From NCBI GenBank assembly GCA_012522445.1, contig JAAYKL010000107.1, positions 1-64,000 on the forward strand: DNA of 64,000 nt, given 5' to 3'. Numbering within the stretch: the stretch's first letter is position 1; every line of letters starts with the position of its first letter. Shown here piece by piece: positions 1,107-19,998 of this stretch. The translations under genes were made by a program, and so were the position numbers. Below the pieces are notes generated by a model, which worked only from the letters and a program-made list of their open reading frames with translations, did no database searches and was not told where the DNA came from. The DNA comes from Myxococcales bacterium (GTDB lineage: Bacteria > Myxococcota_A > Polyangia > JAAYKL01).

Positions 1107-2051
1107 GTGAACACAGTGAAGCATTGGTGGCCATTGTGGGCCCTGGTGAGCCTTGTGGGCTTTGCGGGCTGCGGTTCGGATACAGGCAAATCCCCGGCGA
1201 ATACAGCAGATGAGCCGCAAGACACTGGGGATGCGCCCGGCACGCCCGACAGCGACAATCCCGGCAAACCCACGGACACCGGGGACGAACCCCCAGACAC
1301 CGGGGACGAACACCCAGACACCGGGGACGAACCCTCAGACTCCGGGGACGAGCCCCCAGACACCGGGGACGAGCCCCCAGACACCGAAACGGCACCCGAG
1401 AACACCGACGACACATCGGGGCTTTGCGCCGACGGCACCTTTGATCACGACGGCGATCCCGCAACGCCGTGCGTGCCCCTGACGGTGTGCGGCGACAATG
1501 AATACGCCGCCATCGCCGCCAGCGCCACCAGTGACCGCACCTGCGCACCCTGCCCGGGCAAATCCACCAGCAAGGGCCCCAACGCCGCGTTTTGCACGCC
1601 GTATCAACCGATTTTCCGCGCCATTATGGCGAGCCACCACCACACTTGTGCCCTCGATCAGGACGGCGTGGCCCACTGCTTTGGCCACAACGATGAAGAA
1701 CAAGCTGCCCCGCCCAAAGATGTGCACTTCACCACCCTCGCCGCCGGGGCGTATCACACCTGTGGCCTGGATGCGGACGGCAAGTTCCACTGGTTTGGCA
1801 GCAACGGCGACAGCCAAAACAATTTGCCGGATTTGACCTTCACCGCCATTGCTGCGGGCAGATTCCACACCTGCGCCCTGGACACGGACGGCAAGGCCCA
1901 TTGCGCTGGCAATAACGGCGCTGGTCAGGCCCGTCCACCGGATGGGGTTTTCACCGCCATCACCGCGGGCGTTGATTACAACTGCGGGATTCGCGCCGGA
2001 GACCGCATCGCCATTTGTTGGGGCGAACAGGCCCAAAATCTCTGGCGATAA
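1107..2051 (+). CDS. RCC1-repeat lipoprotein with Asp-rich DTGDEP linker
   Basis: A 314-residue surface lipoprotein. It starts at GTG after GAGAGGAG. The signal peptide ends in a lipobox, LVGFAGC, near residue 22. Residues about 35-100 are a low-complexity linker of repeated TGDEPPD units encoded by 21-base DNA repeats. A Cys-rich segment (CADGTFDHDGDPATPC, CAPCPG) follows, then RCC1-like beta-propeller repeats of the form AAGxxHTCALDxDGxAHCxG (residues about 170-314). Only four or so repeats are present, fewer than the usual seven, so the propeller is short or completed by partners. Function unknown. The linker type recurs at 11861-12568. Confidence 0.75.
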   Translation: MNTVKHWWPLWALVSLVGFAGCGSDTGKSPANTADEPQDTGDAPGTPDSDNPGKPTDTGDEPPDTGDEHPDTGDEPSDSGDEPPDTGDEPPDTETAPENTDDTSGLCADGTFDHDGDPATPCVPLTVCGDNEYAAIAASATSDRTCAPCPGKSTSKGPNAAFCTPYQPIFRAIMASHHHTCALDQDGVAHCFGHNDEEQAAPPKDVHFTTLAAGAYHTCGLDADGKFHWFGSNGDSQNNLPDLTFTAIAAGRFHTCALDTDGKAHCAGNNGAGQARPPDGVFTAITAGVDYNCGIRAGDRIAICWGEQAQNLWR

Positions 2052-2081
2052 GGCCATTTGCAGCGGCGGGCACGCAGGAAA

Positions 2082-2104
2082 AGGGCACCCGCAAGGGGCA
2101 CCCC
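2082..2104 (+). repeat. GC-rich repeat element, shortened copy 2
   Basis: AGGGCACCCGCAA directly joined to GGGGCACCCC, in the gap between the RCC1 lipoprotein and mepA, which are convergent. The first 13 bases match the complement of 901-913. The second block matches the 876-885 block with one change. The intervening bases of copy 1 are absent, as if deleted. Confidence 0.4.
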
Positions 2105-2118
2105 ACAAAATAAATCCA

Positions 2119-2937
2119 TCAATTCGGCTCGATGCACGCCGACAAAGCCAAGTCCAGGCGGCGGTCGTCGGTCAACACCGCATCCGGAATGGAGACGCGC
2201 CAGGGGCGAGAGGGTCCCAGGGGCTGACAAAAGGCCCCCGCCACGCCCCGCGGACAAAAAATCCGCACGTGAAAGTGGTCGTCGTGGGGCGCCGCCCCCG
2301 TGGGTTGGTGCAGCACGCGCTCCGCGCGATCGATCAACTCCCACGATTCGCCCTTACGCACCGCAAACGACAACAAGCGGGCCTTTACCGACGCGCTGAC
2401 AAAGATCCACTGTATGTCGGCCTCATCGCCCTGCAGCAGGCTGCGCACCACCGCCCAGTTTCGCGCCGTGTCAAAGCGCACCACCCGCATGCCCCGCAAA
2501 CCGAGGCCGAAGCGATCGATGCGCGTCGCGGCAGAGGCGGCCACGGGTTGCCCCGCCATGTCCGTTAAGAAAAACGCCAAGTCCACATCCCGGCCCGTGC
2601 GGTGCGACGCGTGCTCGCTGATCCACCCACCGTGGGGCGCGCTGAGATCGCCGACGTGCAACACCGCATCGGGATGGGCGTGCGACAAACGCTCGGCGGT
2701 TCCCGACAACAGCGCGACGAGCTCATGCGTTCCAAAATGCCGGCCGCGCTTTCGGTAGTCGACGCACAACGCTGTGGGGGTGAACACCGCCGGAGACGAG
2801 AGCGCGCCGCAATGGGGAGCGCCCACGCTTTCAAACGCGGACTCCACCCCCAACACCCACGGCACACAGGCGCTGAACCACGCGGTGGCGCACAACAGGA
2901 CACACGCGCATGCCGGCGAAACGCGCGCAGCCCTCAC
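2119..2937 (-). CDS. mepA: Penicillin-insensitive murein endopeptidase (peptidase M74)
   Basis: A 272-residue secreted murein hydrolase that cuts the D-Ala-meso-DAP crosslink. The N-terminus is a hydrophobic signal with a possible lipobox (WFSAC). Zinc-site motifs of the LAS/M74 fold are visible: SEHASHRTGRDVDLAFF (HxxGxxxD) and PHDDHFHVRIFCP (HxH). Its start overlaps the rlmN stop by four bases, so both are probably in one transcript, rlmN first. The C-terminal PSRPWRVSIP is encoded by a 23-base sequence also found in the intergenic repeat at 939-961, suggesting a repeat has been captured in the coding region. Confidence 0.85.
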   Translation of the reverse strand: MRAARVSPACACVLLCATAWFSACVPWVLGVESAFESVGAPHCGALSSPAVFTPTALCVDYRKRGRHFGTHELVALLSGTAERLSHAHPDAVLHVGDLSAPHGGWISEHASHRTGRDVDLAFFLTDMAGQPVAASAATRIDRFGLGLRGMRVVRFDTARNWAVVRSLLQGDEADIQWIFVSASVKARLLSFAVRKGESWELIDRAERVLHQPTGAAPHDDHFHVRIFCPRGVAGAFCQPLGPSRPWRVSIPDAVLTDDRRLDLALSACIEPN

Positions 2938-3986
2938 GGCGCCTTATCATCCTTCAAAGCCAGCAGTTGCCCGCAGGCAGCGTGGATATCGTCCCCGCGT
3001 TTCTTGCGCAAAAACACCGACAACCCTTTGGCGATCAAAATGTCTTGAAAGCGCTGCACCTGTTCTGGCGTAGGCGGCTGCAGCGCCGTTTTGTCGTGCG
3101 GATTGAGCGGCAGCAGGTTGACCTTGGCGCGTATGGGGGCCAGCAGACGCACCAGTTGCCGCGCGTCTTCCTCGCTGTCGTTAACGCCGCGCACCATCAC
3201 ATACTCAATGGTAAAGCGCATGCGATCCGGCAGCGGGTATCGCTTCAGCGTTTGAATGAGGTCGGCCACCGAGACCGAAACATTGGGCACCAGTTGGCGG
3301 CGCACCGCATCGTTGGCGGCGTGCAGCGAGATGGCCAGCGACACCTTGCCACCCGTCAACTCGCCCAGCTTTTCAATGCCGCGGCGAATGCCCACAGTGG
3401 AGATGGTGACGCGGCGCTGCGACAAATCCATGCCGTCCTGGTGGCAAAGCAACTGCAGGGCGCGGGAGACCGCGGCGAAGTTTTGCAGGGGCTCGCCAAC
3501 GCCCATGAACACCACGTTGCGCAATTGCTCTTCCGGCTTGTAAAAGGCGCGGGCGATAAAAATTTGCCCGATGATTTCGGCCGCCGTCATGTTGCGCAGC
3601 AAACCAAAGGCGCCGGAGCGACAAAACGCGCACCCCACGGCACAGCCCACCTGCGATGAGATACACTGCGTCAGCGTGTTGCCCTCGGGGATCAACACCG
3701 TCTCTACCCGCAGTCCGTCCGCCAGGCACACCTCGATTTTCCTCGTGCCGTCCCGCGAGGTGAAGTGCTGGCCCGCTGTGACAGGCAACAACGGCGCATG
3801 GCGATGCAACAGGGCCTTTACATCTGCGGGGAGATTGGTCATCTCATCGGGCGCCAAAACCCCTTTGCGGTGCAGCCATTGAAAGACCTGCATCCCGCGG
3901 TAGGCCGGAAAGCCCTGGGATTGCAAATACTGCGACAATGTCTCGGGCAGCGCGCTGATAAAATCGAATCGTTCGCCAGAATCCAT
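2934..3986 (-). CDS. rlmN: Dual-specificity RNA methyltransferase RlmN
   Basis: A radical-SAM enzyme (350 residues) that methylates C2 of A2503 in 23S rRNA and A37 in some tRNAs. The cluster motif CAVGCAFC (CxxxCxxC) is present, as are FMGVGEPLQNF, SLHAANDAVRRQLVP and the C-terminal RGDDIHAACGQL with its catalytic Cys. The ATG at 3986 (MDSGERF) has GAGG five bases upstream. A GTG two codons earlier is possible but would overlap that site. Downstream mepA overlaps by four bases. Length fits the family. Confidence 0.95.
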   Translation of the reverse strand: MDSGERFDFISALPETLSQYLQSQGFPAYRGMQVFQWLHRKGVLAPDEMTNLPADVKALLHRHAPLLPVTAGQHFTSRDGTRKIEVCLADGLRVETVLIPEGNTLTQCISSQVGCAVGCAFCRSGAFGLLRNMTAAEIIGQIFIARAFYKPEEQLRNVVFMGVGEPLQNFAAVSRALQLLCHQDGMDLSQRRVTISTVGIRRGIEKLGELTGGKVSLAISLHAANDAVRRQLVPNVSVSVADLIQTLKRYPLPDRMRFTIEYVMVRGVNDSEEDARQLVRLLAPIRAKVNLLPLNPHDKTALQPPTPEQVQRFQDILIAKGLSVFLRKKRGDDIHAACGQLLALKDDKAP

Positions 3987-4046
3987 ATTCACCTCGGCCC
4001 GGATACTAATGGGTCATCGGGGCGTGTCAATCAACACAACGAGGCG

Positions 4047-4075
4047 TTGACAACCACATTGAAATACAGCAAAAT
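4047..4075 (+). promoter_or_regulatory. Sigma70-type promoter for the response regulator
   Basis: TTGACA (4047-4052), 17-base spacer, CAAAAT (4070-4075), ending 57 bases before the ATG at 4133. The -35 is a perfect consensus; the -10 matches four of six. Confidence 0.4.
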
Positions 4076-4132
4076 TGAAAACTCAACACACACAAAAAAG
4101 AGCCAACTGCGCAAGGCCGCGAGGTGAAAGCG

Positions 4133-4522
4133 ATGAAAACCGCGAAACAAAACCCACTTTTGTTGCTGGTGGATGATGACCCCAAAATCCTCTCCATTCT
4201 CAAAAAACGCCTGCTCCTCCTCAATTACGATGTCGTCACCGCCGAAAACGGCCATGACGCCTGGCGCATTGCCCAAGAGAATCATCCCGACGCCATTATC
4301 CTCGACATCATGATGCCCGGCATGAATGGCTGGGAAGTCTGCCGCGCCATTCGCTCCGATCCCGCGCTGCAACACACGCCCATCCTCACCCTCTCGGGCA
4401 TCAGCGAAAGCTTGAATGATCTCACGTCGCCGCTCTTTGGCGCCAACGCCCACCTCGACAAACCCTTCGAATTCACCGCGCTGGTTTCCGCCGTCAAATC
4501 GCTGCTGGCCCCGCCAAATTAA
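4133..4522 (+). CDS. Single-domain response regulator (CheY-like)
   Basis: A 129-residue receiver domain with no output domain. It has the acidic pocket LLVDDD near residue 13, the phosphoacceptor D in IILDIMMPGMNGWE, a conserved T/S at ILTLSGIS and K in LDKPFEF. I chose the ATG at 4133 because GAGGTGA lies five bases upstream; an in-frame GTG at 4124 overlaps that site. No histidine kinase is adjacent. It likely acts by protein-protein contact. The stop codon runs into the bidirectional terminator at 4521-4552. Confidence 0.85.
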   Translation: MKTAKQNPLLLLVDDDPKILSILKKRLLLLNYDVVTAENGHDAWRIAQENHPDAIILDIMMPGMNGWEVCRAIRSDPALQHTPILTLSGISESLNDLTSPLFGANAHLDKPFEFTALVSAVKSLLAPPN

Positions 4523-4552
4523 AAAAGCCCGCTGCGAAGGCAACGAGCTTTT
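4521..4552. terminator. Bidirectional rho-independent terminator
   Basis: A 9-base-pair stem (4527-4535 with 4540-4548) encloses a GAAG loop. It is flanked by AAAAAA on the left and TTTT on the right. It can end the response-regulator transcript rightward and the tRNA-Gly transcript leftward, where the T-run is six long and the loop reads CTTC. Confidence 0.8.
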
Positions 4553-4557
4553 GCGAG

Positions 4558-4629
4558 AGCGGGATACGAGATTTGAACTCGCGACTTCCAGCTTGGGAAG
4601 CTAGCACTCTACCACTGAGTTAATCCCGC
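4558..4629 (-). tRNA. tRNA-Gly, anticodon CCC
   Basis: A 72-base cloverleaf on the minus strand. The acceptor GCGGGAT pairs with ATCCCGC, the D stem is ACTC/GAGT, the anticodon stem CTAGC/GCTGG holds the loop TTCCCAA (anticodon CCC), and the T stem GCGAG/CTCGT holds TTCAAAT. The discriminator is U. CCA is not encoded. The terminator at 4521-4552 follows directly. Confidence 0.92.
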
Positions 4630-4721
4630 GCGAAGTGTCCGAACGATAAAGACACGCGCGAAGCCGGTCAAGAATTTTGTTGTCAGAAGTGGCGACACCC
4701 GAAACCGATGCGCCGCGAGGA

Positions 4722-6371
4722 CTACTCTTTTTTGGGCGTGGAGATGGTGCGTATGGCCGCAACTTTGTGTGGTTGCGTTTTGTCCATATCGCCCTGATGT
4801 CGGTATCCCAACACATTGAAGACATTGATGGGCTTGGATTTTCCCTTGGCCTGCACGTTCTCCAAGGGCACGCAATCGAACTCGGCCCCCAGGTGGGCGC
4901 GGGTGGCTTCGCTGATGACCACTTGGGCGGCCTCCGCCGCTGAGCAAAGACGCGCCGCGGTATTGACCGTGTCGCCGATCACCGAATAGCTCATGGTGCG
5001 CGTAGACCCGATGTAGCCCGCCACCAACTCGCCCGTGTTAATGCCGATGCCGATGTGAATGGCCTGCTTGCCGTCGGCGGTGCGCAACGCGTTGAAGTCG
5101 ACGAGCGCTCGCTGCATGTCCACGGCAGCGCGCACAGCCCGCGCAGGGTCGTCGTTGTGCGACATCGGCGCGCCCCACAGCACCATAATTTCGTCGCCGA
5201 CAAATTTGTCCACGGTGCCCTCGTGCTTAAACGCGATGTCCACCATGATTTCGAAATACTCATTGAGCATCTGCAGCACATCCGCCGCTGCCATGTGCTC
5301 CGACATCGAGGTAAACCCGCGGATATCGGCAAACAAAATCGTCGCCACCCGCGCCTCGCCGCCCTTCTGCACACTGAGCTGCCCCGAGACCACCATCTCG
5401 GCCAAGTCCGGCGACAGCAAGCGCGAAAAACGCTCGCGCGTGATGGCGTCTGTTTCGATTTTCTTGGCCATGGAGATGTTTTTGATGAACTGCCCGGTTT
5501 GGTTGCCGATGTTGGACAGCAGGTGCAGGTCCTTTTCGGAGTACGCGTTTACCGCCACCGAAGAGTCGATCAAAATGCAGCCCAGCAATTCGTCTTGGTG
5601 CATGATCGGCACGGCCATGGAGGAGCGGATGCCCTGCATGATCATCGACTTGGCCTCTTTAAACCGCGTGTCAATCTGCGCGTCCGACGAGAGAACGCCC
5701 GCCTTTTCCTTTTGCACTTGGTTGACCAAGGTCGACGAAATCACCAGTTTGTCTTCGGGCTTTTTCATCTTGTAGGCGCGGGGTTTTAGCGCGCCCTTTT
5801 CATCGGCCAGCAAAATCACACCGCGATCGCAGTTCAAAAACGAAAACGTGCTCGTCAGTATTTTTTGCAACACGCTATCCAGGTCTAAGTCGAGGCTGAC
5901 CTCGCGCTGCAATTCGTAAGTAACCCGCAGTTTTTCGTAGTCCGCGCGCAGGTGTTTTTCGTCCTGAATTTCTTTTTCGGGCAAAAAGCGATCTTGGGTG
6001 GCCGCAATTTTGGTGCGCACATGGCTCTGCAGCGCGCCCTCGCTCATGTCGACCACTTGCTGCACTTCTGCCGCTACCTCATCGCTGAGAAACATACAGC
6101 GCGTGCCGCCAAAGGTGATCTCGTCGCCGTCTTGCAGCCGGACTTCTTCGGCAATCCGCTGGCGATTGACGTAGCTGCCGTTCAGACTGCCCAGATCGCG
6201 AAACCAATATCCGGTGGCCCGGTCATACGTAATGAGGGCGTGTTCTTTCGACATGATGCGGTCGAGAATTTGGATGTCGTTTTGTGGCTGCGGGAGTCGC
6301 CCAATCTTGTTGTGCTCTTTCAGTTGAACTTCTCTGCGACCGTGCTCATCAAAAATTACCAATTTGGCCAT
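4722..6371 (-). CDS. FHA-GAF-class III adenylate/guanylate cyclase
   Basis: A 549-residue cytoplasmic signalling protein. The FHA domain (about residues 22-100) has IGR, SKEHA and GSLNGSYVN, which bind phosphothreonine. A GAF domain spans about 165-300. The class III cyclase domain (about 340-530) has the two metal-binding Asp residues in LFADIRGFTSM and KFVGDEIMVLWG, plus GINTGELVAGYIGS and VIGDTVNTAARL. The last gene of an operon with an upstream kinase and PP2C phosphatase, so the FHA domain probably reads phosphorylation by that kinase. Product (cAMP or cGMP) cannot be told by eye. Confidence 0.9.
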   Translation of the reverse strand: MAKLVIFDEHGRREVQLKEHNKIGRLPQPQNDIQILDRIMSKEHALITYDRATGYWFRDLGSLNGSYVNRQRIAEEVRLQDGDEITFGGTRCMFLSDEVAAEVQQVVDMSEGALQSHVRTKIAATQDRFLPEKEIQDEKHLRADYEKLRVTYELQREVSLDLDLDSVLQKILTSTFSFLNCDRGVILLADEKGALKPRAYKMKKPEDKLVISSTLVNQVQKEKAGVLSSDAQIDTRFKEAKSMIMQGIRSSMAVPIMHQDELLGCILIDSSVAVNAYSEKDLHLLSNIGNQTGQFIKNISMAKKIETDAITRERFSRLLSPDLAEMVVSGQLSVQKGGEARVATILFADIRGFTSMSEHMAAADVLQMLNEYFEIMVDIAFKHEGTVDKFVGDEIMVLWGAPMSHNDDPARAVRAAVDMQRALVDFNALRTADGKQAIHIGIGINTGELVAGYIGSTRTMSYSVIGDTVNTAARLCSAAEAAQVVISEATRAHLGAEFDCVPLENVQAKGKSKPINVFNVLGYRHQGDMDKTQPHKVAAIRTISTPKKE

Positions 6372-6413
6372 TTATCACTCTTTGGCTTTCGGCGCCGACA
6401 ACAGGGCCAGCGT

Positions 6414-8381
6414 CTATTTTTCAACCCTCACCGTGCATTTTTTCATCGCGCCATCGGTGCGCTGCAAATCAAAACGGACGCTGCCCTTTACTTCGGTCTG
6501 CTCCGTCTGAGAGATGCTGAGCTTCTGCAAAATATTGTTCCAACACTTGGCCACTGCAGCGTTGCTCGAGTTCCTGGGGATGAGTTCCGACAGCTTGTTC
6601 ACGCCGGACTTCACGGTGTAACCAAACAGCGCAGAGGCGGCGCCATCTTTAACGCAATTTTTGATGGCACTTTGCTGGTTGATCAAAGCCTTGGCCACGC
6701 CACTGGGAACGCCGACGCCCTTGGTGTGTGAGCTAATCGTGCAGGCAATCTCCGCAGGGATTTTTATGTCCTCGGGGATTTTCACGTCCTCGGGGATTTT
6801 CACGTCCTCGGGGATTTTCACGTCCTCGGGGATTTTTACATCCTCGGGGAGTTCCACGCCCTCGGGGAGCTTCACGCCCTCGGGGAGCTTCACGCCATCA
6901 GCGGGTTTCGGCGTTGTGGCAGCAGGTGTTTTGTTGCTGGTGCTGGGGGTGCGCGCCGCGGTGCCGCCAGAACTGGACGCAGCCTTGTCACTGCCGGTTT
7001 GCGGAACGACCGCCAAGGGCGCCGGCCCCGGTGGCAGGGATTGCTGCGCAGGCGTCCCCGAAGCAGCGGAGTCGCCCACAGGTGCTTGCGCCACGCCCCC
7101 ACCGACCTCTGCTGGCGCTTGGGCGCCCCAATGAGCGCGCCCCGGTCCCAGCAAAAAGTACCACGCCGCTGCGCCCCCGGCGCCGAGCAGCAACACCAGT
7201 CCCACCACAACCACCGCGACAACCGCGCCGCGCCCCCCCGACTTCGGCGGTGGCGGGGCCGCTTGTGAGGGCATGGGCATGGTCCCGGTGGCGGGTGTGG
7301 GGGCCGCTTGGGGACGGCTCGCCGGAACAGAAGCCGCAGGGGAAGACGCCGCGACAGGTGCCGGGGTGACGGCGCTGTTGGCGGCTGTTGCCGCAATGCC
7401 CCCGGTTTGTGTAATTCCCAACAGGGCATTGAGGGCAGCGCCCAGCTCCTTCATGTCTGCGGGGCGATTGACGGGGTCTTTTTCGAGGGTCTTCATCACC
7501 AAGGCCTCGAGCTCTGGCGGAATTTGCTGCGATGGGTTCATCACCGAAAAGGCCGGGGGCGGGTCCATCAAGTGCTTGGTCAACATGCCCATGGGCGTGT
7601 CCGATTTGAACGGCAACACACCGGTCAGCATGTGGTACAAAATCACGCCGACCGAATACACATCCGAACGCGCGTCCAGTTTTTCGCCGCGAATTTGCTC
7701 CGGCGACATGTATTGCGGCGTGCCGAAAACCATTCCCGTGCGCGTCAGGGCTTTGCGTTGATCGGTGCTGCTCTCATCCATAATTTTCGCAATGCCGAAA
7801 TCCAACACTTTGACAAAATCCGACTCGTCGCCGCGCGTGTACAGCATGACGTTTTCGGGTTTCATGTCGCGGTGAATGATGCCGTTGTTGTGCGCATTGC
7901 GCAGCGAACCGCAAATTTGGCTGCCGATGTGACAAGCGCGCTGCCAATCCAACGCACCCCTCGCATTGATTTCGTCGTCCAGGCTCACGCCGTCGATGTA
8001 TTCCATCGCGATGTACAAAGAACCTTTGTCCGTCTTGCCAAAATCGTAAATCGTAATGGTGTTGGGGTGGTTCAAACGGCTCGACGCCGCAGCTTCATTG
8101 CGAAAACGCGCATACAGCTCTTCGTCGTTCAGGTGCGGATGCAACACCTTGAGCGCCACGCGGCGATCGATGGCGGTTTGTTCCGCCTCGTACACCACGC
8201 CCATGCCGCCTTCACCGAGCTTGCGCTTCACCAAAAAACGCTCGCCAACAAATGCGCCGATCAGCTCGTCTCGCGACTCCGCAGCGCTGGTATCGACCAA
8301 GGCCGTTCCGCATTTCGAACAAAAAGAAGTGCCCTTGGAGTTGGCCGCATTACATCTTGAACACAATATTTCGTCTGCCAC
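6414..8381 (-). CDS. Membrane Ser/Thr protein kinase (Hanks type) with zinc ribbon and PEDVKI repeats
   Basis: A 655-residue kinase. An N-terminal zinc ribbon (C7xxC10, C21xxC24) precedes the kinase domain (about 49-320) with GEGGMGVVYEA, VALK (K78), HRDMKPENVML, DFGIAKI and GTPQYMSPEQ, so it looks active. A Pro/Ala linker leads to one membrane helix (about 385-410). Outside it a low-complexity stretch ends in eight hexapeptides, PEGVKL then PEDVKI. The terminal domain (about 545-655) has three Cys and is unrecognised. It lies 45 bases downstream of the PP2C gene and 42 upstream of the FHA cyclase. The likely role is to sense an envelope cue and phosphorylate the FHA-linked cyclase or others. 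Confidence 0.9.
   Translation of the reverse strand: MADEILCSRCNAANSKGTSFCSKCGTALVDTSAAESRDELIGAFVGERFLVKRKLGEGGMGVVYEAEQTAIDRRVALKVLHPHLNDEELYARFRNEAAASSRLNHPNTITIYDFGKTDKGSLYIAMEYIDGVSLDDEINARGALDWQRACHIGSQICGSLRNAHNNGIIHRDMKPENVMLYTRGDESDFVKVLDFGIAKIMDESSTDQRKALTRTGMVFGTPQYMSPEQIRGEKLDARSDVYSVGVILYHMLTGVLPFKSDTPMGMLTKHLMDPPPAFSVMNPSQQIPPELEALVMKTLEKDPVNRPADMKELGAALNALLGITQTGGIAATAANSAVTPAPVAASSPAASVPASRPQAAPTPATGTMPMPSQAAPPPPKSGGRGAVVAVVVVGLVLLLGAGGAAAWYFLLGPGRAHWGAQAPAEVGGGVAQAPVGDSAASGTPAQQSLPPGPAPLAVVPQTGSDKAASSSGGTAARTPSTSNKTPAATTPKPADGVKLPEGVKLPEGVELPEDVKIPEDVKIPEDVKIPEDVKIPEDIKIPAEIACTISSHTKGVGVPSGVAKALINQQSAIKNCVKDGAASALFGYTVKSGVNKLSELIPRNSSNAAVAKCWNNILQKLSISQTEQTEVKGSVRFDLQRTDGAMKKCTVRVEK
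6763..6900. repeat. 18-base in-frame tandem repeat inside the kinase gene
   Basis: Seven full units and a partial one, with period 18, core CACGTCCTCGGGGATT and a second variety ending GGGGAGC. Three consecutive units (6781-6834) are identical, indicating recent expansion. The repeat adds six residues per unit (PEDVKI or PEGVKL), so copy changes keep the frame. Confidence 0.85.
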
Positions 8382-11860: not shown

Positions 11861-12568
11861 TTACAAGGGCATGCAAACGCCGCTGCCATCGTAAGAGCCG
11901 TCCTCGACATCTTGGGCCGGTTCGCACATGAAGTCATCGGGGCATTCATCGATAACCAGCAAACAGGGCATGACACAGTAGACGTTTTCTTCTTCGCCCT
12001 CCCAAGAGACGCATTCACCCTCTTCCTCTACATCGGCTTCGTTGCACTCTCCGGTGAGTTCATCGGGGGCCTCGCACAGGCTGCGGGGCACGCAGGTGTC
12101 CTCGCAGGTGTATCCAACGGGCAGATCCCAGTCTTCGGGATAATCGCAGATGCCGTAGAAGCCGTCGCCGACATTCAGGCAATACACATCGGTGGCACAG
12201 GCGGCGGGCGTACAAGCCATGCGGCAATAGCAGGCGTCATCGTCGTTATCAAGCGTGGTCACGAAACCATCATCGCACCAGAAGACTTCTTCTTCGTCGT
12301 CGTTAACGCCCTCGTAGCAGGGTTCGTTCAAACCGCCCAGGCCATCATTCTCGGTGTCGACGACGTCAGGGTCCGTTGGGTCGTCACCGGTATCCAGTGG
12401 CTCATCACCGGTGTCCTCGGGCTCACTACCGGTGTCCTTGGGCACAGTGTTTTTCCCTGTGTCTCGGATGCTGTCGTCATCGTCTGATGAGCCCGATGAA
12501 AAAGAACACCCGGTCATCACCATCACAGCAGCAAGCATAAGCACCAAAAACATTCCCATTTTTTTCAT
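11861..12568 (-). CDS. Cys-rich lipoprotein with DTGDEP linker
   Basis: A 235-residue lipoprotein starting at MKKMGMF, with GGAGG seven bases upstream. The lipobox is VMVMTGC. The linker carries PEDTGDEPLDTGDDP, the same style as the RCC1 lipoprotein at 1107-2051. The mature part has about 20 Cys in patterns such as ACYCRMACTPAAC and CEDTCVPRSLC, suggesting disulfide-rich small modules outside the cytoplasm. Function unknown. Confidence 0.75.
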   Translation of the reverse strand: MKKMGMFLVLMLAAVMVMTGCSFSSGSSDDDDSIRDTGKNTVPKDTGSEPEDTGDEPLDTGDDPTDPDVVDTENDGLGGLNEPCYEGVNDDEEEVFWCDDGFVTTLDNDDDACYCRMACTPAACATDVYCLNVGDGFYGICDYPEDWDLPVGYTCEDTCVPRSLCEAPDELTGECNEADVEEEGECVSWEGEEENVYCVMPCLLVIDECPDDFMCEPAQDVEDGSYDGSGVCMPL

Positions 12569-12597
12569 GACTGTCCTCCATTCATTTGGATTATTAA

Positions 12598-12626
12598 ATG
12601 ATATAATCACCAGCAAATGCACGCAA
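12598..12626 (-). promoter_or_regulatory. Sigma70-type promoter for the Cys-rich lipoprotein
   Basis: On the minus strand TTGCGT (12621-12626), 17-base spacer, TATCAT (12598-12603), about 30 bases before the ATG at 12568. It lies in the divergent gap with folC. Confidence 0.45.
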
Positions 12627-12768
12627 GAATTCCGCTTCATTTCGCATTGGCAACTGCACATCCCCTCCTATCATAGTTCTCTTCGCCAATTGTTGTTTAT
12701 TTTTGAGAATCCCTTTAGAAAGCAACGCGGCATTGCCATATTTTTGGCAATCACCGCGGGAATTGGAC

Positions 12769-14138: not shown

Positions 14139-15101
14139 TCAATCGTCGGTGTCGGCGTCGTCCGACGCGACAGGCCCGTTAACGGGATCGACGGCTCCGG
14201 GATAGTTTTCCATGAACGGCCAAGGCTCGCCGCCGTAAAAACCGATCATGTCGAGCCAAACATCGAATTCGTAAGGTGCACTTCCCTTGGCGAGATCGAC
14301 GGTAAATTGCACCGCGGTGAACTCATCCATGCTGAAGGTCACGGCCTTGCCCCAACCGCCTTGTTTGAAGGCCTCAAAGGGCACCGAGTATTCGCGCCAC
14401 TTGCCGTCAAGCGTCACCGTGACATGGTGGAAGTCAAAACACTTCTCGCCTTTGTCTTCTTTACAAGTGCCGCCCAGGCTTTCGTCCACGACGCCGGGCA
14501 TGTTCAGCGTTACTTTTAAGGTGCCTTCACCCTTGGCCCAAAACACCAGGCCTTCTTGGCCACGTTCGGAAAACTTGCGCGGCATTTTTTCTTTAACGGC
14601 TTCGGCGCACGGCACGTTTAACACCGGGTGATTGGCGCAGTAGCGATCGAAGGTGCCCTCAGTGTCGATAACGGCCGGAATCAACTCCTCGCCATCCTCA
14701 AAATAGGTGCCCAGCCCCACTCCGTTGCCTGCGGTGGTGCCCCGAATGCGCATGGATGTTTCGTTGCCATAAAACTTAAAGGCGCTCTTGCCGGAATTGC
14801 TTTTGGTAAATCCCATGGTGAGGGCTTCGCCATTTTTCTCCAGCGGAACAATTTCATCTTGGTCGGATTTGGGGTCATCGAAGGTGTAGAAGTAGCCAGC
14901 GCTCTTCTCCATCACTTGGTGTGCCGGATCATTTGAGTATTCGAAATTGCTCAACAAATAGGTGATTTCGACCGTGGGTTTGTCGCTGATCTGCACGCTG
15001 GCACCGGAATCTGAAGCGCAACTGGACCATGCAAACAACGCGGTCGCCAAAAGTGTTGCCTTCAAAAAAGAAACGAAATGACATCGAAAATTGCTCTTCA
15101 T
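14139..15101 (-). CDS. Lipoprotein with carbohydrate-binding-like (CIA30/CBM-type) domain
   Basis: A 320-residue protein with a signal ending AWSSCAS, a loose lipobox. The ribosome site AAGGTG precedes the ATG. The body shows a jelly-roll pattern: SMRIRGTTAGNGVGLG, GLVFWAKGEGTLKVTLNMPG, WREYSVPFEAFKQGGWG and FTVDLAKGSAPYEFDVWLD. This is typical of galactose-binding-like domains that hold sugars or polysaccharide. The C-terminus is acidic. No enzyme is attached. It probably binds a surface or environmental glycan. Confidence 0.65.
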   Translation of the reverse strand: MKSNFRCHFVSFLKATLLATALFAWSSCASDSGASVQISDKPTVEITYLLSNFEYSNDPAHQVMEKSAGYFYTFDDPKSDQDEIVPLEKNGEALTMGFTKSNSGKSAFKFYGNETSMRIRGTTAGNGVGLGTYFEDGEELIPAVIDTEGTFDRYCANHPVLNVPCAEAVKEKMPRKFSERGQEGLVFWAKGEGTLKVTLNMPGVVDESLGGTCKEDKGEKCFDFHHVTVTLDGKWREYSVPFEAFKQGGWGKAVTFSMDEFTAVQFTVDLAKGSAPYEFDVWLDMIGFYGGEPWPFMENYPGAVDPVNGPVASDDADTDD

Positions 15102-15288: not shown

Positions 15289-16509
15289 CTAACGGCCAAT
15301 GGCGCGCCGAAAAAAGGCATCCTTTTGCATCGTGCCCAACGCCCCTTGCTTGACCTGCTCTTCGTCGTAACCCGCGACCGCATCCGGCGTTTTCCCGGGA
15401 TGCCAGATGGCGACGGGCACCGGGTCGTTGTTGTGGAGACCGGTTTCCACCGGCGTGGGGTGATCGGGCAAAACAGAGAGAATCACCGGCGCTTTCATCT
15501 TTTCGATGCCCGCCAAAATCAAGCGAACCAAGCGCTGATCCAAGTCTTCGATGCAGCGGATTTTCAGTTCGAGGTTGCGTTCGTGCCCCGCTTCGTCGGC
15601 GGCCTCTACGTGCACGTAGACAAAGTCGTGACGTTGAATGGCTTCAAGCGCCGCAGCGGCCTTTCCCTCGTAATTGGTATCGAAAAGTCCCGTGGCGCCG
15701 GGCACTTCGATTTTTTCCATTCCACCCAAGACGCCGATGCCTTGGATCAAATCAACCGCTGAAATCACCGCGCCGGAGATGCCGTACATCTCTTGAAATG
15801 TCGACATGGAAGGGCGACGCCCCAACGACCACGGCCAGATGCGGTTGGCGGGATCTTTGCCCGCCGCCACGCGCGCGAGATTGATGGGATGCGACGCCAA
15901 GATATCGCGGGCTGCAGTCATTAAATCCCGTAGGCGACGCGCTGTGGATTCGGCCTCTGGGTGCAACGCCCGGGGCAGCAAGTCGCGCTCGAGTTCGCCC
16001 ACGTGATCATGCGGTGGCGCGCAACGCACCTGAGGATGACCGAAGCCCTTGAAGACGAGCAGGTGGCGATAGCTGACGCCGGGATAAAACGCAACGGGCT
16101 CTGGCCCTTGTCCGCCCAAAGCCTTTTGCAAGTCTTCGATGAGTACATGGGCTTCGTCGGTGCTGATGTGACCAGCCGAGTGGTTGCGAATGCGCCCGTC
16201 GTCGTCGACACAGATCAAATTGCAGCGCATGCCGACATCGTTGGCGTCCAGCAGCACCCCCATGCTGGCGGCCTCTAAAACGCCCCGCCCTTGAAAGCAC
16301 TCGGTGGGGTCGTAACCGAGCACCGAGAGATTGGCGACCTCTGAGCCCATGGGCATGCCGTCGGGAATGGTGTGCAACAAGCCGCTGCGCCCCTGGCGTG
16401 CGATGTGATCGATGGCGGGCTTCTTCGCGACCATCAGCGGTGTGCGCCCATTGAGGGCTGCCACAGGATGGTCGGACATGCCGTCGCCGAGAATGATAAT
16501 GCTCTTCAT
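15289..16509 (-). CDS. Cofactor-independent phosphoglycerate mutase-like, presumed homoserine kinase
   Basis: A 406-residue alkaline-phosphatase-fold enzyme of the ApgM group. The metal-binding LGDGMSDHP opens the protein, MGSEVANLSVLGYDP holds the phospho-Ser region, and HVEAADEAGHERN plus VLPDHPTPVETG complete the metal ligands. Its ATG overlaps the thrC stop by four bases. A subgroup of this family clusters with thrC and has been proposed as an alternative homoserine kinase. No ThrB of the GHMP or APH type is seen here. The likely reaction is homoserine to O-phosphohomoserine, the ThrC substrate. A genuine glycolytic mutase remains the alternative. Confidence 0.75.
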   Translation of the reverse strand: MKSIIILGDGMSDHPVAALNGRTPLMVAKKPAIDHIARQGRSGLLHTIPDGMPMGSEVANLSVLGYDPTECFQGRGVLEAASMGVLLDANDVGMRCNLICVDDDGRIRNHSAGHISTDEAHVLIEDLQKALGGQGPEPVAFYPGVSYRHLLVFKGFGHPQVRCAPPHDHVGELERDLLPRALHPEAESTARRLRDLMTAARDILASHPINLARVAAGKDPANRIWPWSLGRRPSMSTFQEMYGISGAVISAVDLIQGIGVLGGMEKIEVPGATGLFDTNYEGKAAAALEAIQRHDFVYVHVEAADEAGHERNLELKIRCIEDLDQRLVRLILAGIEKMKAPVILSVLPDHPTPVETGLHNNDPVPVAIWHPGKTPDAVAGYDEEQVKQGALGTMQKDAFFRRAIGR

Positions 16510-17873
16510 CCGGCGTACTCTCTTTGCAACAGCGCTTTGAAGGCCGCGTAGTCTGTCGACATGTTTCCGTAGGATTCGGGGAGTTCTTCGAGGCCCTGTA
16601 GAGACCTGGGCAGGTCGGGTGAGATGCCGAGCAACGCCACGATTTCGTCGGGGAATTTGGCGGGATGTGCGGTCTCCAAACTCACGCAAGGCGTCTTGTG
16701 AAAGGCCGCCCCTTCTTCGGTGTTGAGAAAAGCATCTAAGCCCGCCCACCCCACGGCCCCATGGGGCTCGAGCAGCGCGTTGTGCGCGGCGTACACGTCG
16801 CGAATGGTTTGGCGGGTTTGCGCATCGTCGATGCTGATGCCGAACACCACTTCCCGCAGGCGCTCCATGTCGGGCTGCTGCAGCATCGCACCGCGCTCGT
16901 CGATGTGCCCCCCGTACAGATCGACTAGGCGCGCGAGATTGGAGGGATGCCCCACGTTCATCGCGTTGGAGATGGCGGCCAATGACGGTTCGATTTTTTG
17001 ATACTGCCCCGACGCCAAAAAGCGCGGCACTTCGTCGTTGATGTTGGTGGCGGCGATAAAGCGGGCCACCGGCAGCCCCGATTGGCGCGCGAGCATGCCG
17101 CCCATGAGGTTGCCAAAATTGCCCGACGGAATGCAAACCACGACCGGCTCTCCGCTGGCCACATCCGACACCTGCGCAGCGGCGTAGGCGTAGTACACCG
17201 ACTGCGGCAACAGGCGCCCGATATTGATGGAGTTGGCCGAAGACAAATTGAGTCCCTGCAAGTCGGCATCGGAAAACGCGCGTTTGACCAGGGCCTGGCA
17301 GTCGTCGAATTTGCCGTCCACGGCCACGGTGGCCACGTTGCCGCCCAGGGTTGTCATTTGTTTGCGCTGCCGGTCGGACACCTCGTCGATGGGAAAGAGC
17401 ACCAGGACGCGGATGTTGGGCACACCGGAGAACGCGTGCGCCACCGCCGAACCCGTATCGCCGGAAGTGGCCGTTAGAATGAGCAGCTCGCGACCTTGTC
17501 GCGCAACGAGCCGCCCCAGGGCTCTCCCCATAAAGCGCGCCGCGAAGTCTTTAAACGAAGCCGTCGGACCGCGGTCCAGGCGCAAGAGATGGCGGTTGTC
17601 GCACACGTGCTCCACGGGCACGTCGAAGTTGTAGGCGTCGTGGCAGATGTCGCCGAGTTCGTCATCGGAGAAGACACCCTGCGCATACGGAGACAGCAGG
17701 CGCACAGCCAAATCGGGATAGGACAGGCGGTGCATGTTTTTTCGCACTTCGGTGGCGATGGGCGGAATGTGGGTTGGCATGTAGAGCCCGCGGTCTGGCG
17801 CCTGCCCCTGCAACAAGGCCTGATCGAGCGCCACCTGGGGCGCATGTCGATTGGTGCTGTAATACGAAATCAT
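16506..17873 (-). CDS. thrC: Threonine synthase
   Basis: A 455-residue PLP enzyme converting O-phosphohomoserine to threonine. PLP lysine motif GPTASFKDFAARF, phosphate-binding region ATSGDTGSAVAHAF, IPSGNFGNLMGGM and the N-terminal YYSTN typical of the group are all present. It follows mtnA by 12 bases and is translationally coupled to the PGM-like gene downstream. Length fits the family. Confidence 0.95.
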   Translation of the reverse strand: MISYYSTNRHAPQVALDQALLQGQAPDRGLYMPTHIPPIATEVRKNMHRLSYPDLAVRLLSPYAQGVFSDDELGDICHDAYNFDVPVEHVCDNRHLLRLDRGPTASFKDFAARFMGRALGRLVARQGRELLILTATSGDTGSAVAHAFSGVPNIRVLVLFPIDEVSDRQRKQMTTLGGNVATVAVDGKFDDCQALVKRAFSDADLQGLNLSSANSINIGRLLPQSVYYAYAAAQVSDVASGEPVVVCIPSGNFGNLMGGMLARQSGLPVARFIAATNINDEVPRFLASGQYQKIEPSLAAISNAMNVGHPSNLARLVDLYGGHIDERGAMLQQPDMERLREVVFGISIDDAQTRQTIRDVYAAHNALLEPHGAVGWAGLDAFLNTEEGAAFHKTPCVSLETAHPAKFPDEIVALLGISPDLPRSLQGLEELPESYGNMSTDYAAFKALLQREYAG

Positions 17874-17885
17874 GATGTTGCTCTT

Positions 17886-18914
17886 TCAGTTTGCGTTGGC
17901 GAGGCGTGCCAGGTTGTCGTCGAATGGCGGCAGGACCACGCCGTTGTCGGTAAAGATGGCGGAGATGAGGTGCGATGGCGTCACGTCGAACGCGGGGTTC
18001 ATCGCGTTTACCCCTGCGGCGAGTACGCGGTGTTCGGCCACGTGACTCACCTCTGCGGCTGCGCGCTCTTCGATGGGGATTTGCGCGCCATTGGGACAGG
18101 TTAAATCCACCGTGGAAAAGGGAGCGGCGACATAAAACGGAATGCGGTGGGCATGGGCCGCCAGGGCCACGCCGTATGTGCCGATTTTGTTGGCCACGTC
18201 GCCATTGGCCGCGATGCGATCCGCACCCACGACAACGGCGTCGACCAATCCGCGGGCCAAAACCGATGCGGCAGCGCCATCGGCGATCACCGTTACGTCA
18301 ATGCCATCCTTGGCCAGCTCCCAGGCGGTGAGGCGCGCGCCCTGAAAGAGCGGTCGCGTCTCGTCGGCGATCACCCGGATACGCTTCCCCATGGCCACGG
18401 CGGAGCGGATGACCCCCAGGGCACTGCCCCACCCTGCTGTGGCCAAGGCCCCGGCATTGCAGTGCGTCAACACCGTGTCGCCATCTTTCAAATACGCGGC
18501 CCCAAAATCGCCCATCCTTCGGCATCCGGCGATGTCTTCGTCGCGGATCGCTTGCGCCTCGCGGAGCAGGATATCGGGGTCTGGTCCATGTTGGCGCATG
18601 CACGCCTTCATGCGCGCAATGCCCCAAAAGAGATTGACAGCGGTGGGGCGCGTGGCGGCGAGCTGGTCGCAAGCGCGCAGAATGGCCGCCTCATCCCCGG
18701 GGAATTGCCGGGCCGCCAATGCGACGCCAAAGGCTGCGGTCACTCCGATGGCGGGAGCGCCCCGCACCGTCATATTGGCGATGGCCTCCGCCACCCCAGC
18801 CACATCGCGGAAAGAGCGATAGGTTTCCTCATGTGGCAACAGCCGCTGGTCGATCAAGACCACCGCGTCATCTTTCCAGTACACGGTTTCAAAAGATGGT
18901 GACGACAAGGTCAT
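17886..18914 (-). CDS. mtnA: S-methyl-5-thioribose-1-phosphate isomerase
   Basis: A methionine-salvage enzyme (342 residues) that isomerises MTR-1-P to MTRu-1-P. Motifs: MTVRGAPAIGVTAAFG, THCNAGALATAGWGSALGVI with the catalytic Cys, VIADETRPLFQGARLTAWEL and VVGADRIAANGDVANKIGTYG. The start at 18914 has AAGGAG six bases upstream; a longer frame to 18980 has no such site. No other mtn genes are in the window; it heads the mtnA-thrC-PGM-like operon. Confidence 0.93.
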   Translation of the reverse strand: MTLSSPSFETVYWKDDAVVLIDQRLLPHEETYRSFRDVAGVAEAIANMTVRGAPAIGVTAAFGVALAARQFPGDEAAILRACDQLAATRPTAVNLFWGIARMKACMRQHGPDPDILLREAQAIRDEDIAGCRRMGDFGAAYLKDGDTVLTHCNAGALATAGWGSALGVIRSAVAMGKRIRVIADETRPLFQGARLTAWELAKDGIDVTVIADGAAASVLARGLVDAVVVGADRIAANGDVANKIGTYGVALAAHAHRIPFYVAAPFSTVDLTCPNGAQIPIEERAAAEVSHVAEHRVLAAGVNAMNPAFDVTPSHLISAIFTDNGVVLPPFDDNLARLANAN

Positions 18915-18995
18915 GGTTCTCCTTGAAAAGGGGGCAGTCGACGGCGCGCGACGGCGCCATCGAGCATGGCTCATGTGCACAGTTTTCGTTTGGCA

Positions 18996-19841
18996 TCAAT
19001 ACTGATCGAGCCGGCAAGTGTCGCAGTCCTGGCCCAGTCGAGAAGCCACGGTGGTCGCTTCTTGAATCGTTTTCGCCAGCGTGGAGCGAATGCGGCCTTC
19101 TTCCATAATGAGCAGCCCGGCGATGGTGCACCCTCCCGGCGTGGTCACTTCGTCTTTCAAGGCCGCCGGATGCCGCGCCGACTGCAACAGCAAACGCGCT
19201 GCGCCTTGAAACATCTGCGCCGAAATTTCGCGCGCCTCTTGACGCGGCAGGCCCATCATCACGGCGCCATCCGCCAAGGCTTCGAGGATCATGAACGCAA
19301 AGGCGGGCCCCGCAGCAGACAGCGCAGTGACAACATCGAAGTGGCGCTCGTCGAGCACATGGGTGCGACCGAGTTGCTCAAAAAGAGAACGCGCGCGCGT
19401 CATGGTTTCATCGCTAACTTCTGGACGTGCGGTCAACACGATGGTGCCCTCGCCGATCACGCAGGGGGTATTGGGCATGGCGCGCACAATTTCAACCTGC
19501 CCCGATTGTCCCGGCGCGTTCGCCCACTCTTCGAGCTGCGCCAACGTAACGCCCGTGCAAATGCTGATCAGCAGCTTGCCGCGCAGTTCCTCTCGAATCG
19601 ATGAAAGCACCTCTTGTGCATTGCTGGGCTGGACACTCAGAATCAAAACGTTGCTGTTTTTGGCCGCCACCAAGTTGTCCCGCGTCACCTTCAAGCCGGG
19701 ATACCGATTCTCGAGTTCGCGCACGTGATCTTTGAGCAGCGTCGTCGCATAGATGTCTTCGATGGACTGAAACGAGAGCGACAACAATCCTTTCAAGATA
19801 ATTTCGCCCATTTGCCCACAACCCAAAATGCCAATTTTCAT
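18996..19841 (-). CDS. proC: Pyrroline-5-carboxylate reductase
   Basis: A 281-residue enzyme for the last step of proline synthesis, using NAD(P)H. It has the Rossmann start MKIGILGCGQMGE, VRAMPNTPCVIGEGT, SAAGPAFAFMILEALADG and TTPGGCTIAGL. The ATG at 19841 has GGAG six bases upstream; an ATG four codons earlier overlaps that site. It is probably separate from mtnA, 81 bases downstream. Confidence 0.93.
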   Translation of the reverse strand: MKIGILGCGQMGEIILKGLLSLSFQSIEDIYATTLLKDHVRELENRYPGLKVTRDNLVAAKNSNVLILSVQPSNAQEVLSSIREELRGKLLISICTGVTLAQLEEWANAPGQSGQVEIVRAMPNTPCVIGEGTIVLTARPEVSDETMTRARSLFEQLGRTHVLDERHFDVVTALSAAGPAFAFMILEALADGAVMMGLPRQEAREISAQMFQGAARLLLQSARHPAALKDEVTTPGGCTIAGLLIMEEGRIRSTLAKTIQEATTVASRLGQDCDTCRLDQY

Positions 19842-19998
19842 GCTCCGCTCCATCCGCTATGGCGCTCTGGCACAGTCCTGCGCGCCGCCTTGTTTGCCTT
19901 TGTTTATATGAATAACGTCGCTTCGGAAAACAAAAAGCGTTCAAAGCACTTTGTCGCGCTCCCAGACGTTTGAAAAACGCGCTGAAAAGCATTTTGCG

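Follow-up and report, generated by a model that had tools for sequence, protein, structure and literature searches.

The window, i.e., the whole stretch of 64,000 nucleotides analysed here, contains a gene for a protein with the fold of archaeal-type phosphoglycerate mutases (ApgM), which probably represents an alternative homoserine kinase of the TIGR02535 branch and provides O-phospho-L-homoserine to the product of the adjoining thrC gene in place of the usual kinase ThrB. This reading, which was drawn from sequence comparisons, is the same as that of the original prediction and is supported by the position of the protein in a phylogenetic tree, a separate phosphoglycerate mutase of the iPGM type in the same genome, the lack of a recognisable ThrB and the linkage to thrC, while the enzymatic activity itself is a proposal. 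The idea of such a homoserine kinase is already in print as a proposal, as stated in the accessible parts of the respective papers (GapMind; 'ThrB2'). New at this locus are the overlapping arrangement with thrC, the family-wide replacement of ThrB with one altered ThrB, and an argument at the level of single residues.

Gene arrangement and linkage to thrC

The mutase-like gene (15289..16509, minus strand) codes for a protein of 406 amino acids, which we annotate from family models, tree, residues and predicted structure as a putative homoserine phosphotransferase. It is preceded on the same strand by proC, mtnA and thrC, in this order. The thrC gene (16506..17873, minus strand) codes for a threonine synthase of 455 amino acids, as indicated by a TIGR00260 score of 248 bits (cut-off 167) and the Pfam domains Thr_synth_N and PALP. 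Upstream of it are mtnA for methylthioribose-1-phosphate isomerase (17886..18980, minus strand; TIGR00512, 416 bits, cut-off 279), whose start is the one given by the ORF tool and may truly be at an inner ATG, and proC for pyrroline-5-carboxylate reductase (18996..19853, minus strand; 259 bits, cut-off 197), for which we claim no link to threonine synthesis. Reading the minus strand, the ATG of the mutase-like gene (16509-16507) and the TGA stop codon of thrC (16508-16506) share the sequence ATGA (16506..16509), confirming the predicted four-base overlap as well as the predicted position of mtnA just upstream. The ATG is preceded, at a distance of 8 bases, by a purine-rich stretch, AAAGAGAG (16525-16518). 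We found no terminator-like site between thrC and the mutase-like gene, and a promoter scan of the locus gave matches at chance level only. Two further ORFs of the window (11861-12661 and 14139-15101) appear to code for lipoprotein-like products without Pfam matches, and relatives of the second one are located near the same genes in other genomes of the family (L056, L057, L059, L061).

The arrangement is conserved in the family of the window's genome (f1), where thrC directly precedes the mutase-like gene in all 14 genomes, including that of the window (G000) and G009, where a contig end truncates the gene behind thrC. Start and stop codons overlap by 4 bases in 12 of the 14 and by 1 base in L057, and are separated by a 3-base gap in L059. 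Of the 13 other family loci, six have mtnA upstream of thrC, five of them directly before it and L063 further up. Beyond the family, contigs were searched by peptide patterns, and 80 named loci were kept of at least 553 relatives, two of them being records of the family genomes G012 and G006. These loci are mostly from Bacteroidota, with others from Acidobacteriota, Chloroflexota, Verrucomicrobiota, Spirochaetota, Cloacimonadota and further phyla. On the same strand and within 300 bases, thrC was present in 68 of the 80 loci (after the mutase-like gene in 49, before it in 19), and a homoserine dehydrogenase gene within 700 bases in 40; either of the two was recorded in 69. The expected clustering of this subgroup with threonine genes is thus evident within the family and across phyla. 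Among the low-scoring mutase-like relatives, none of 11 loci contained thrC, most of these loci reaching 1.5 kb to each side. Because some members on the TIGR02535 side of the tree are located away from thrC (L187, L189, L190 and L191, and L067 with thrC 3.7 kb off), this branch is not exclusively linked to threonine.

Two of these members, L187 (G074:C1, 6243-9797) and L191 (G073:C67, 8219-12586), form a branch located near genes for a class-III aminotransferase and a CDP-alcohol phosphatidyltransferase, and possibly belong to a lipid head-group pathway. Another locus, L069 (G028:C19, 9429-11420), codes for a protein of 663 residues in which a nucleotidyltransferase domain is fused to a mutase-like domain, and adjoins the gene of an Asp/Glu racemase-methyltransferase protein.

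A different function has been proposed for the TIGR02535 protein CbiU of Dehalobacter, namely that of an L-threonine kinase for the cobalamin side chain (PMC4285132, in the available text). Such a reaction would involve the same chemistry, with a substrate closely related to homoserine. No cobalamin gene was found among the scanned neighbours of the mutase-like gene (folC, thrC, mtnA, proC), and a genome search for threonine-phosphate decarboxylase (CobD, TIGR01140) gave no match over the cut-off, the best one (175 of 290 bits) being located just before a hisB-like ORF, as read by eye. Considering both the neighbours and the CobD search, we regard this function as highly improbable for the window's protein.

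Family membership and predicted structure

The mutase-like protein matched the model TIGR02535, named 'proposed homoserine kinase', over positions 1-391 of 397 with 504.1 bits (cut-off 446.3). It also exceeded the cut-offs of TIGR00306 (apgM; 494 bits, cut-off 320) and of the 'equivalog' model NF003242 (PRK04200; 523 bits, cut-off 426), which is named cofactor-independent phosphoglycerate mutase, and stayed below that of a further mutase model, NF003104 (325 bits, cut-off 489). Pfam assigned a Metalloenzyme domain with a PhosphMutase cap and no other domains; TIGR00191 was absent among the NCBIfam matches and GHMP domains among those of Pfam. In a model calculated by AlphaFold2 from 15 sequences (mean pLDDT 94.3, pTM 0.89), the closest solved structure was 2zkt_B (Z 46.4, 2.2 Å over 367 residues), followed by 3kd8 and 3idd, with bacterial iPGMs at Z values of about 20. 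The predicted fold is that of a mutase, which says nothing on the substrate.

These scores and structures are what would be expected if the gene coded for an ordinary archaeal-type phosphoglycerate mutase that lies behind thrC by happenstance, and 2zkt, 3kd8 and 3idd are also the only sequence matches of the protein among solved structures. The tree of ApgM proteins and proposed homoserine kinases suggested by the original prediction separates the two groups: among 115 proteins, that of the window and 101 others are on one side, and two mutases from the PDB, the only rows that are named mutases with solved structures, together with 11 low-scoring relatives on the other side, with an SH-aLRT support of 100. 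Because long branches meet at this split, we use it only together with the residue evidence given below. The protein is placed with the TIGR02535 branch, apart from the solved archaeal-type mutases.

ThrB and phosphoglycerate mutases in the genomes

The source assembly comprises 3.12 Mb in 143 contigs and is 88.24% complete and 1.53% contaminated. No ThrB was detected over the cut-off in this 88% complete genome, the best scores being 11 bits for TIGR00191 and 22 bits for TIGR00938 (cut-off 256), which extends the earlier statement that the window contains no other ThrB candidate to the genome. A full bacterial iPGM is present (683 bits), together with one homoserine dehydrogenase (218 bits) and one member of the histidine phosphatase family (PF00300, 46.5 bits). 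The genome scan for ThrB and a glycolytic mutase therefore agrees with the predicted role, and the opposite case of a normal thrB elsewhere, with the mutase-like gene as the only one for a phosphoglycerate mutase, was not found in this genome. Homoserine kinases similar to shikimate kinases are known from Desulfovibrio, according to the accessible part of PMC5764234.

Among 39 genomes compared, TIGR02535 scored over the cut-off in 14 (13 of the 14 f1 genomes, namely G000-G008 and G010-G013, and G014 of another family), ThrB in seven, and both in none. A survey of 372 genomes of the phylum gave TIGR02535 in 18 and ThrB in 85, again without overlap. The absence of ThrB from all 18, compared with 85 of 372 overall, corresponds to a hypergeometric value of 0.008 and a two-sided Fisher value of 0.017, both ignoring kinship, which inflates the statistic since 11 of the 18 genomes belong to one family. 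A better control than the whole phylum is the set of genomes coding for mutase-like proteins with low scores (112 to 194 bits), where ThrB was present in 11 of 23, compared with none of 21 on the TIGR02535 side, i.e., the 18 over the cut-off plus three with members just below it (p 2e-4). Because neither type exceeded the cut-off in 269 of the 372 genomes, the absence of ThrB taken alone is weak evidence, and another, unrecognised homoserine kinase in this phylum is plausible. The 18 genomes include that of L188 (G354:C57), the best-scoring TIGR02535 match of the phylum, which is located on a 4-kb contig whose G+C at third positions, about 0.33, sets it apart from the other loci viewed, and is possibly a contamination.

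Regarding an ordinary mutase, iPGM was detected over the cut-off in 14 of the 18 TIGR02535 genomes. The other four (G005, G006, G013, G074) would fit a glycolytic role of the mutase-like gene, although G006 contains a second, low-scoring mutase-like gene.

One genome of the family, G002, contains thrC with the mutase-like gene and additionally a gene for a bifunctional aspartokinase/homoserine dehydrogenase (thrA) followed by a ThrB-like gene (L073, G002:C126, 7373-9901, and L044, 1501-2415). The product of the latter stays below the cut-off of TIGR00191 (134 of 168 bits) and just exceeds that of NF002288 (196 bits, cut-off 194). It differs from nine other aligned ThrB proteins in all three of the motifs which we take to be the functional motifs of GHMP enzymes, having GFN with Asn for Asp, GLGGE for GLGSS and CGLGP for SG[AS]GP. 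We take the gene to be a leftover that is losing its function, although, being of full length, it may have another role. Two loci from other phyla go against a simple replacement of ThrB: in L109 (Anaerolineae, 1998-5843) and L110 (Verrucomicrobia, 4976-7209), an intact-looking ThrB gene scoring over the cut-off (252 and 227 bits, respectively) adjoins the mutase-like gene in divergent orientation, the latter being followed in L109 by a thrC of a second type.

Such neighbours would also fit a different role in threonine synthesis, for instance one in which the protein acts on phosphohomoserine, as a phosphatase or regulator, or is the partner of an unrecognised homoserine kinase, and so would the lack of both known types in most of the phylum. 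The available text of PMC7311316 adds to this that BT2402, a TIGR02535 protein of Bacteroides thetaiotaomicron, failed to complement an E. coli thrB mutant (cited there as a personal communication); its authors leave the activity open. The same text reports that BT2402 mutants require added threonine for growth, that the curators of TIGR02535 proposed this family as a homoserine kinase, and that in GapMind 29 of 148 prototrophs had a homoserine kinase of low confidence only, TIGR02535 being present in 15 of these 29 strains without ThrB. This distribution, the altered motifs of the ThrB-like protein of G002 and the fact that the mutase-like gene is the only candidate found in the window's genome, where ThrB was searched with TIGR00191 and TIGR00938, make another role in threonine synthesis unlikely, and we keep to the homoserine kinase.

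Residues of the active site

To compare the sites, 101 sequences of the TIGR02535 side (23 gathered by score or window membership and 78 by pattern) were aligned with 13 of the mutase side. All 101 have D9, D305, H309, D349, H350 and H359; at position 56, 99 have Ser and two have Thr (L067 and L093). Together with S56, these residues presumably represent the nucleophilic Ser and the metal ligands, as in iPGM.

Nine columns are nearly fixed on each side of the tree and yet different. Giving the TIGR02535 residue first and the counts out of 101 and 13, these are columns 110 (His/Arg; 95, 13), 111 (Ser/Arg; 98, 13), 114 (His/Arg; 101, 12), 147 (Tyr/His; 95, 13), 165 (Pro/Asp; 97, 13), 225 (Trp/Leu; 101, 11), 227 (Trp/Arg; 101, 13), 259 (Gly/Ala; 96, 12) and 302 (Glu/Lys; 101, 13). 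The net change is a loss of five basic residues and a gain of one acidic residue, and the basic residues of the mutase side are absent from the window's protein, where the four Arg and the Lys correspond to H110, S111, H114, W227 and E302. A further Glu, E306, occurs in all 101 sequences and was not seen among the 13; in the sequence, the metal ligand D305 lies between E302 and E306. Since the peptide patterns include HVEA[TAS]DEA, both Glu residues were partly selected in the 78 pattern-gathered sequences, whereas E302 is also present in all of the other 23.

The five basic positions may well serve to bind phosphoglycerate on the mutase side, and their exchange suggests the loss of the phosphoglycerate site and makes a zwitterionic substrate likely. 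This argues against phosphoglycerate as the substrate and fits homoserine. A profile comparison with a substrate-bound bacterial iPGM matched over 76 columns of the metal domain, and because of this limited match the exchanged residues are not tied to known contacts of 3-phosphoglycerate. In the accessible literature on BT2402 and the family, we found no description of the nine-column set, which provides a short list of residues bearing on the change of substrate.

Taken together, the residue comparison, the family models, the iPGM of the genome and the tree disfavour an ordinary phosphoglycerate mutase, and the linkage of the mutase-like gene is to thrC; we consider a mutase that lies behind thrC by chance distinctly unlikely.

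Proposed reaction and its consequences

As a homoserine kinase, the protein would be a member of the alkaline phosphatase superfamily which has kept the archaeal-type mutase fold and changed its substrate, and would convert homoserine to O-phospho-L-homoserine for the threonine synthase encoded just upstream, replacing the GHMP kinase ThrB. Ser56 would be phosphorylated by a donor and the phosphate then passed on to the hydroxyl group of homoserine, in a ping-pong mechanism with two metals. As a guess, not ATP but a small phosphoester would act as the donor, for example phosphoenolpyruvate or a phosphoglycerate. We put forward only tentatively, and at somewhat less than even chances, that the enzyme is such a ping-pong phosphotransferase instead of a nucleotide-dependent kinase, in which the Ser-phosphate inherited from the mutase transfers to homoserine a phosphate group taken from a glycolytic phosphoester or from another phosphoamino acid, and in which the five lost basic residues and the invariant Glu mark the change of substrate. 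If so, a whole branch of bacteria would make threonine without spending ATP directly at the homoserine step.

Counting against the assignment as homoserine kinase are the NF003242 score, the many genomes with neither type, the ThrB genes of L109 and L110, the failed complementation by BT2402, the members away from thrC and the incomplete assembly. Homoserine kinase is among the steps most often missing from predicted amino acid pathways. Were the function proven, bacteria wrongly predicted to be threonine auxotrophs would be recognised as prototrophs, and the label 'phosphoglycerate mutase' would be corrected.

Comparison with known systems

The closest counterparts are the TIGR02535 or 'ThrB2' proteins such as BT2402, which score over the cut-off of the same model and share the linkage to threonine genes and the complementarity to ThrB (PMC7311316 and PMC9026213, in the available text). 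In the accessible part of PMC9026213, 'ThrB2' is named in 300 gut genomes, of which 278 lack thrB. For BT2402, the available text of PMC9765024 describes conserved zinc sites and a lost calcium site, and Arg38 of the window's protein corresponds to an Arg reported there. We found no enzyme assay of a TIGR02535 protein in the accessible open-licence literature. The window differs from the BT2402 type in belonging to another phylum and in its gene order, in which thrC precedes the mutase-like gene and its stop codon overlaps the start codon of the latter, unlike the order in Bacteroidetes.

The archaeal-type cofactor-independent phosphoglycerate mutases (PH0037, 2zkt, and the Thermoplasma acidophilum enzyme, 3kd8 and 3idd) have the fold and the Ser and metal residues in common with the protein at 27–30% identity, but differ in the exchanged basic residues. 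With the GHMP homoserine kinase ThrB (TIGR00191), which belongs to a different superfamily, it shares only the proposed product and the place in the pathway. Finally, PhpG, the CMP-5'-phosphonoformate--3-phosphoglycerate transferase (NF038358), is related by score (217 bits, well under the cut-off of 545) and has different substrates; it represents a mutase relative which is named a two-substrate transferase by NCBI.
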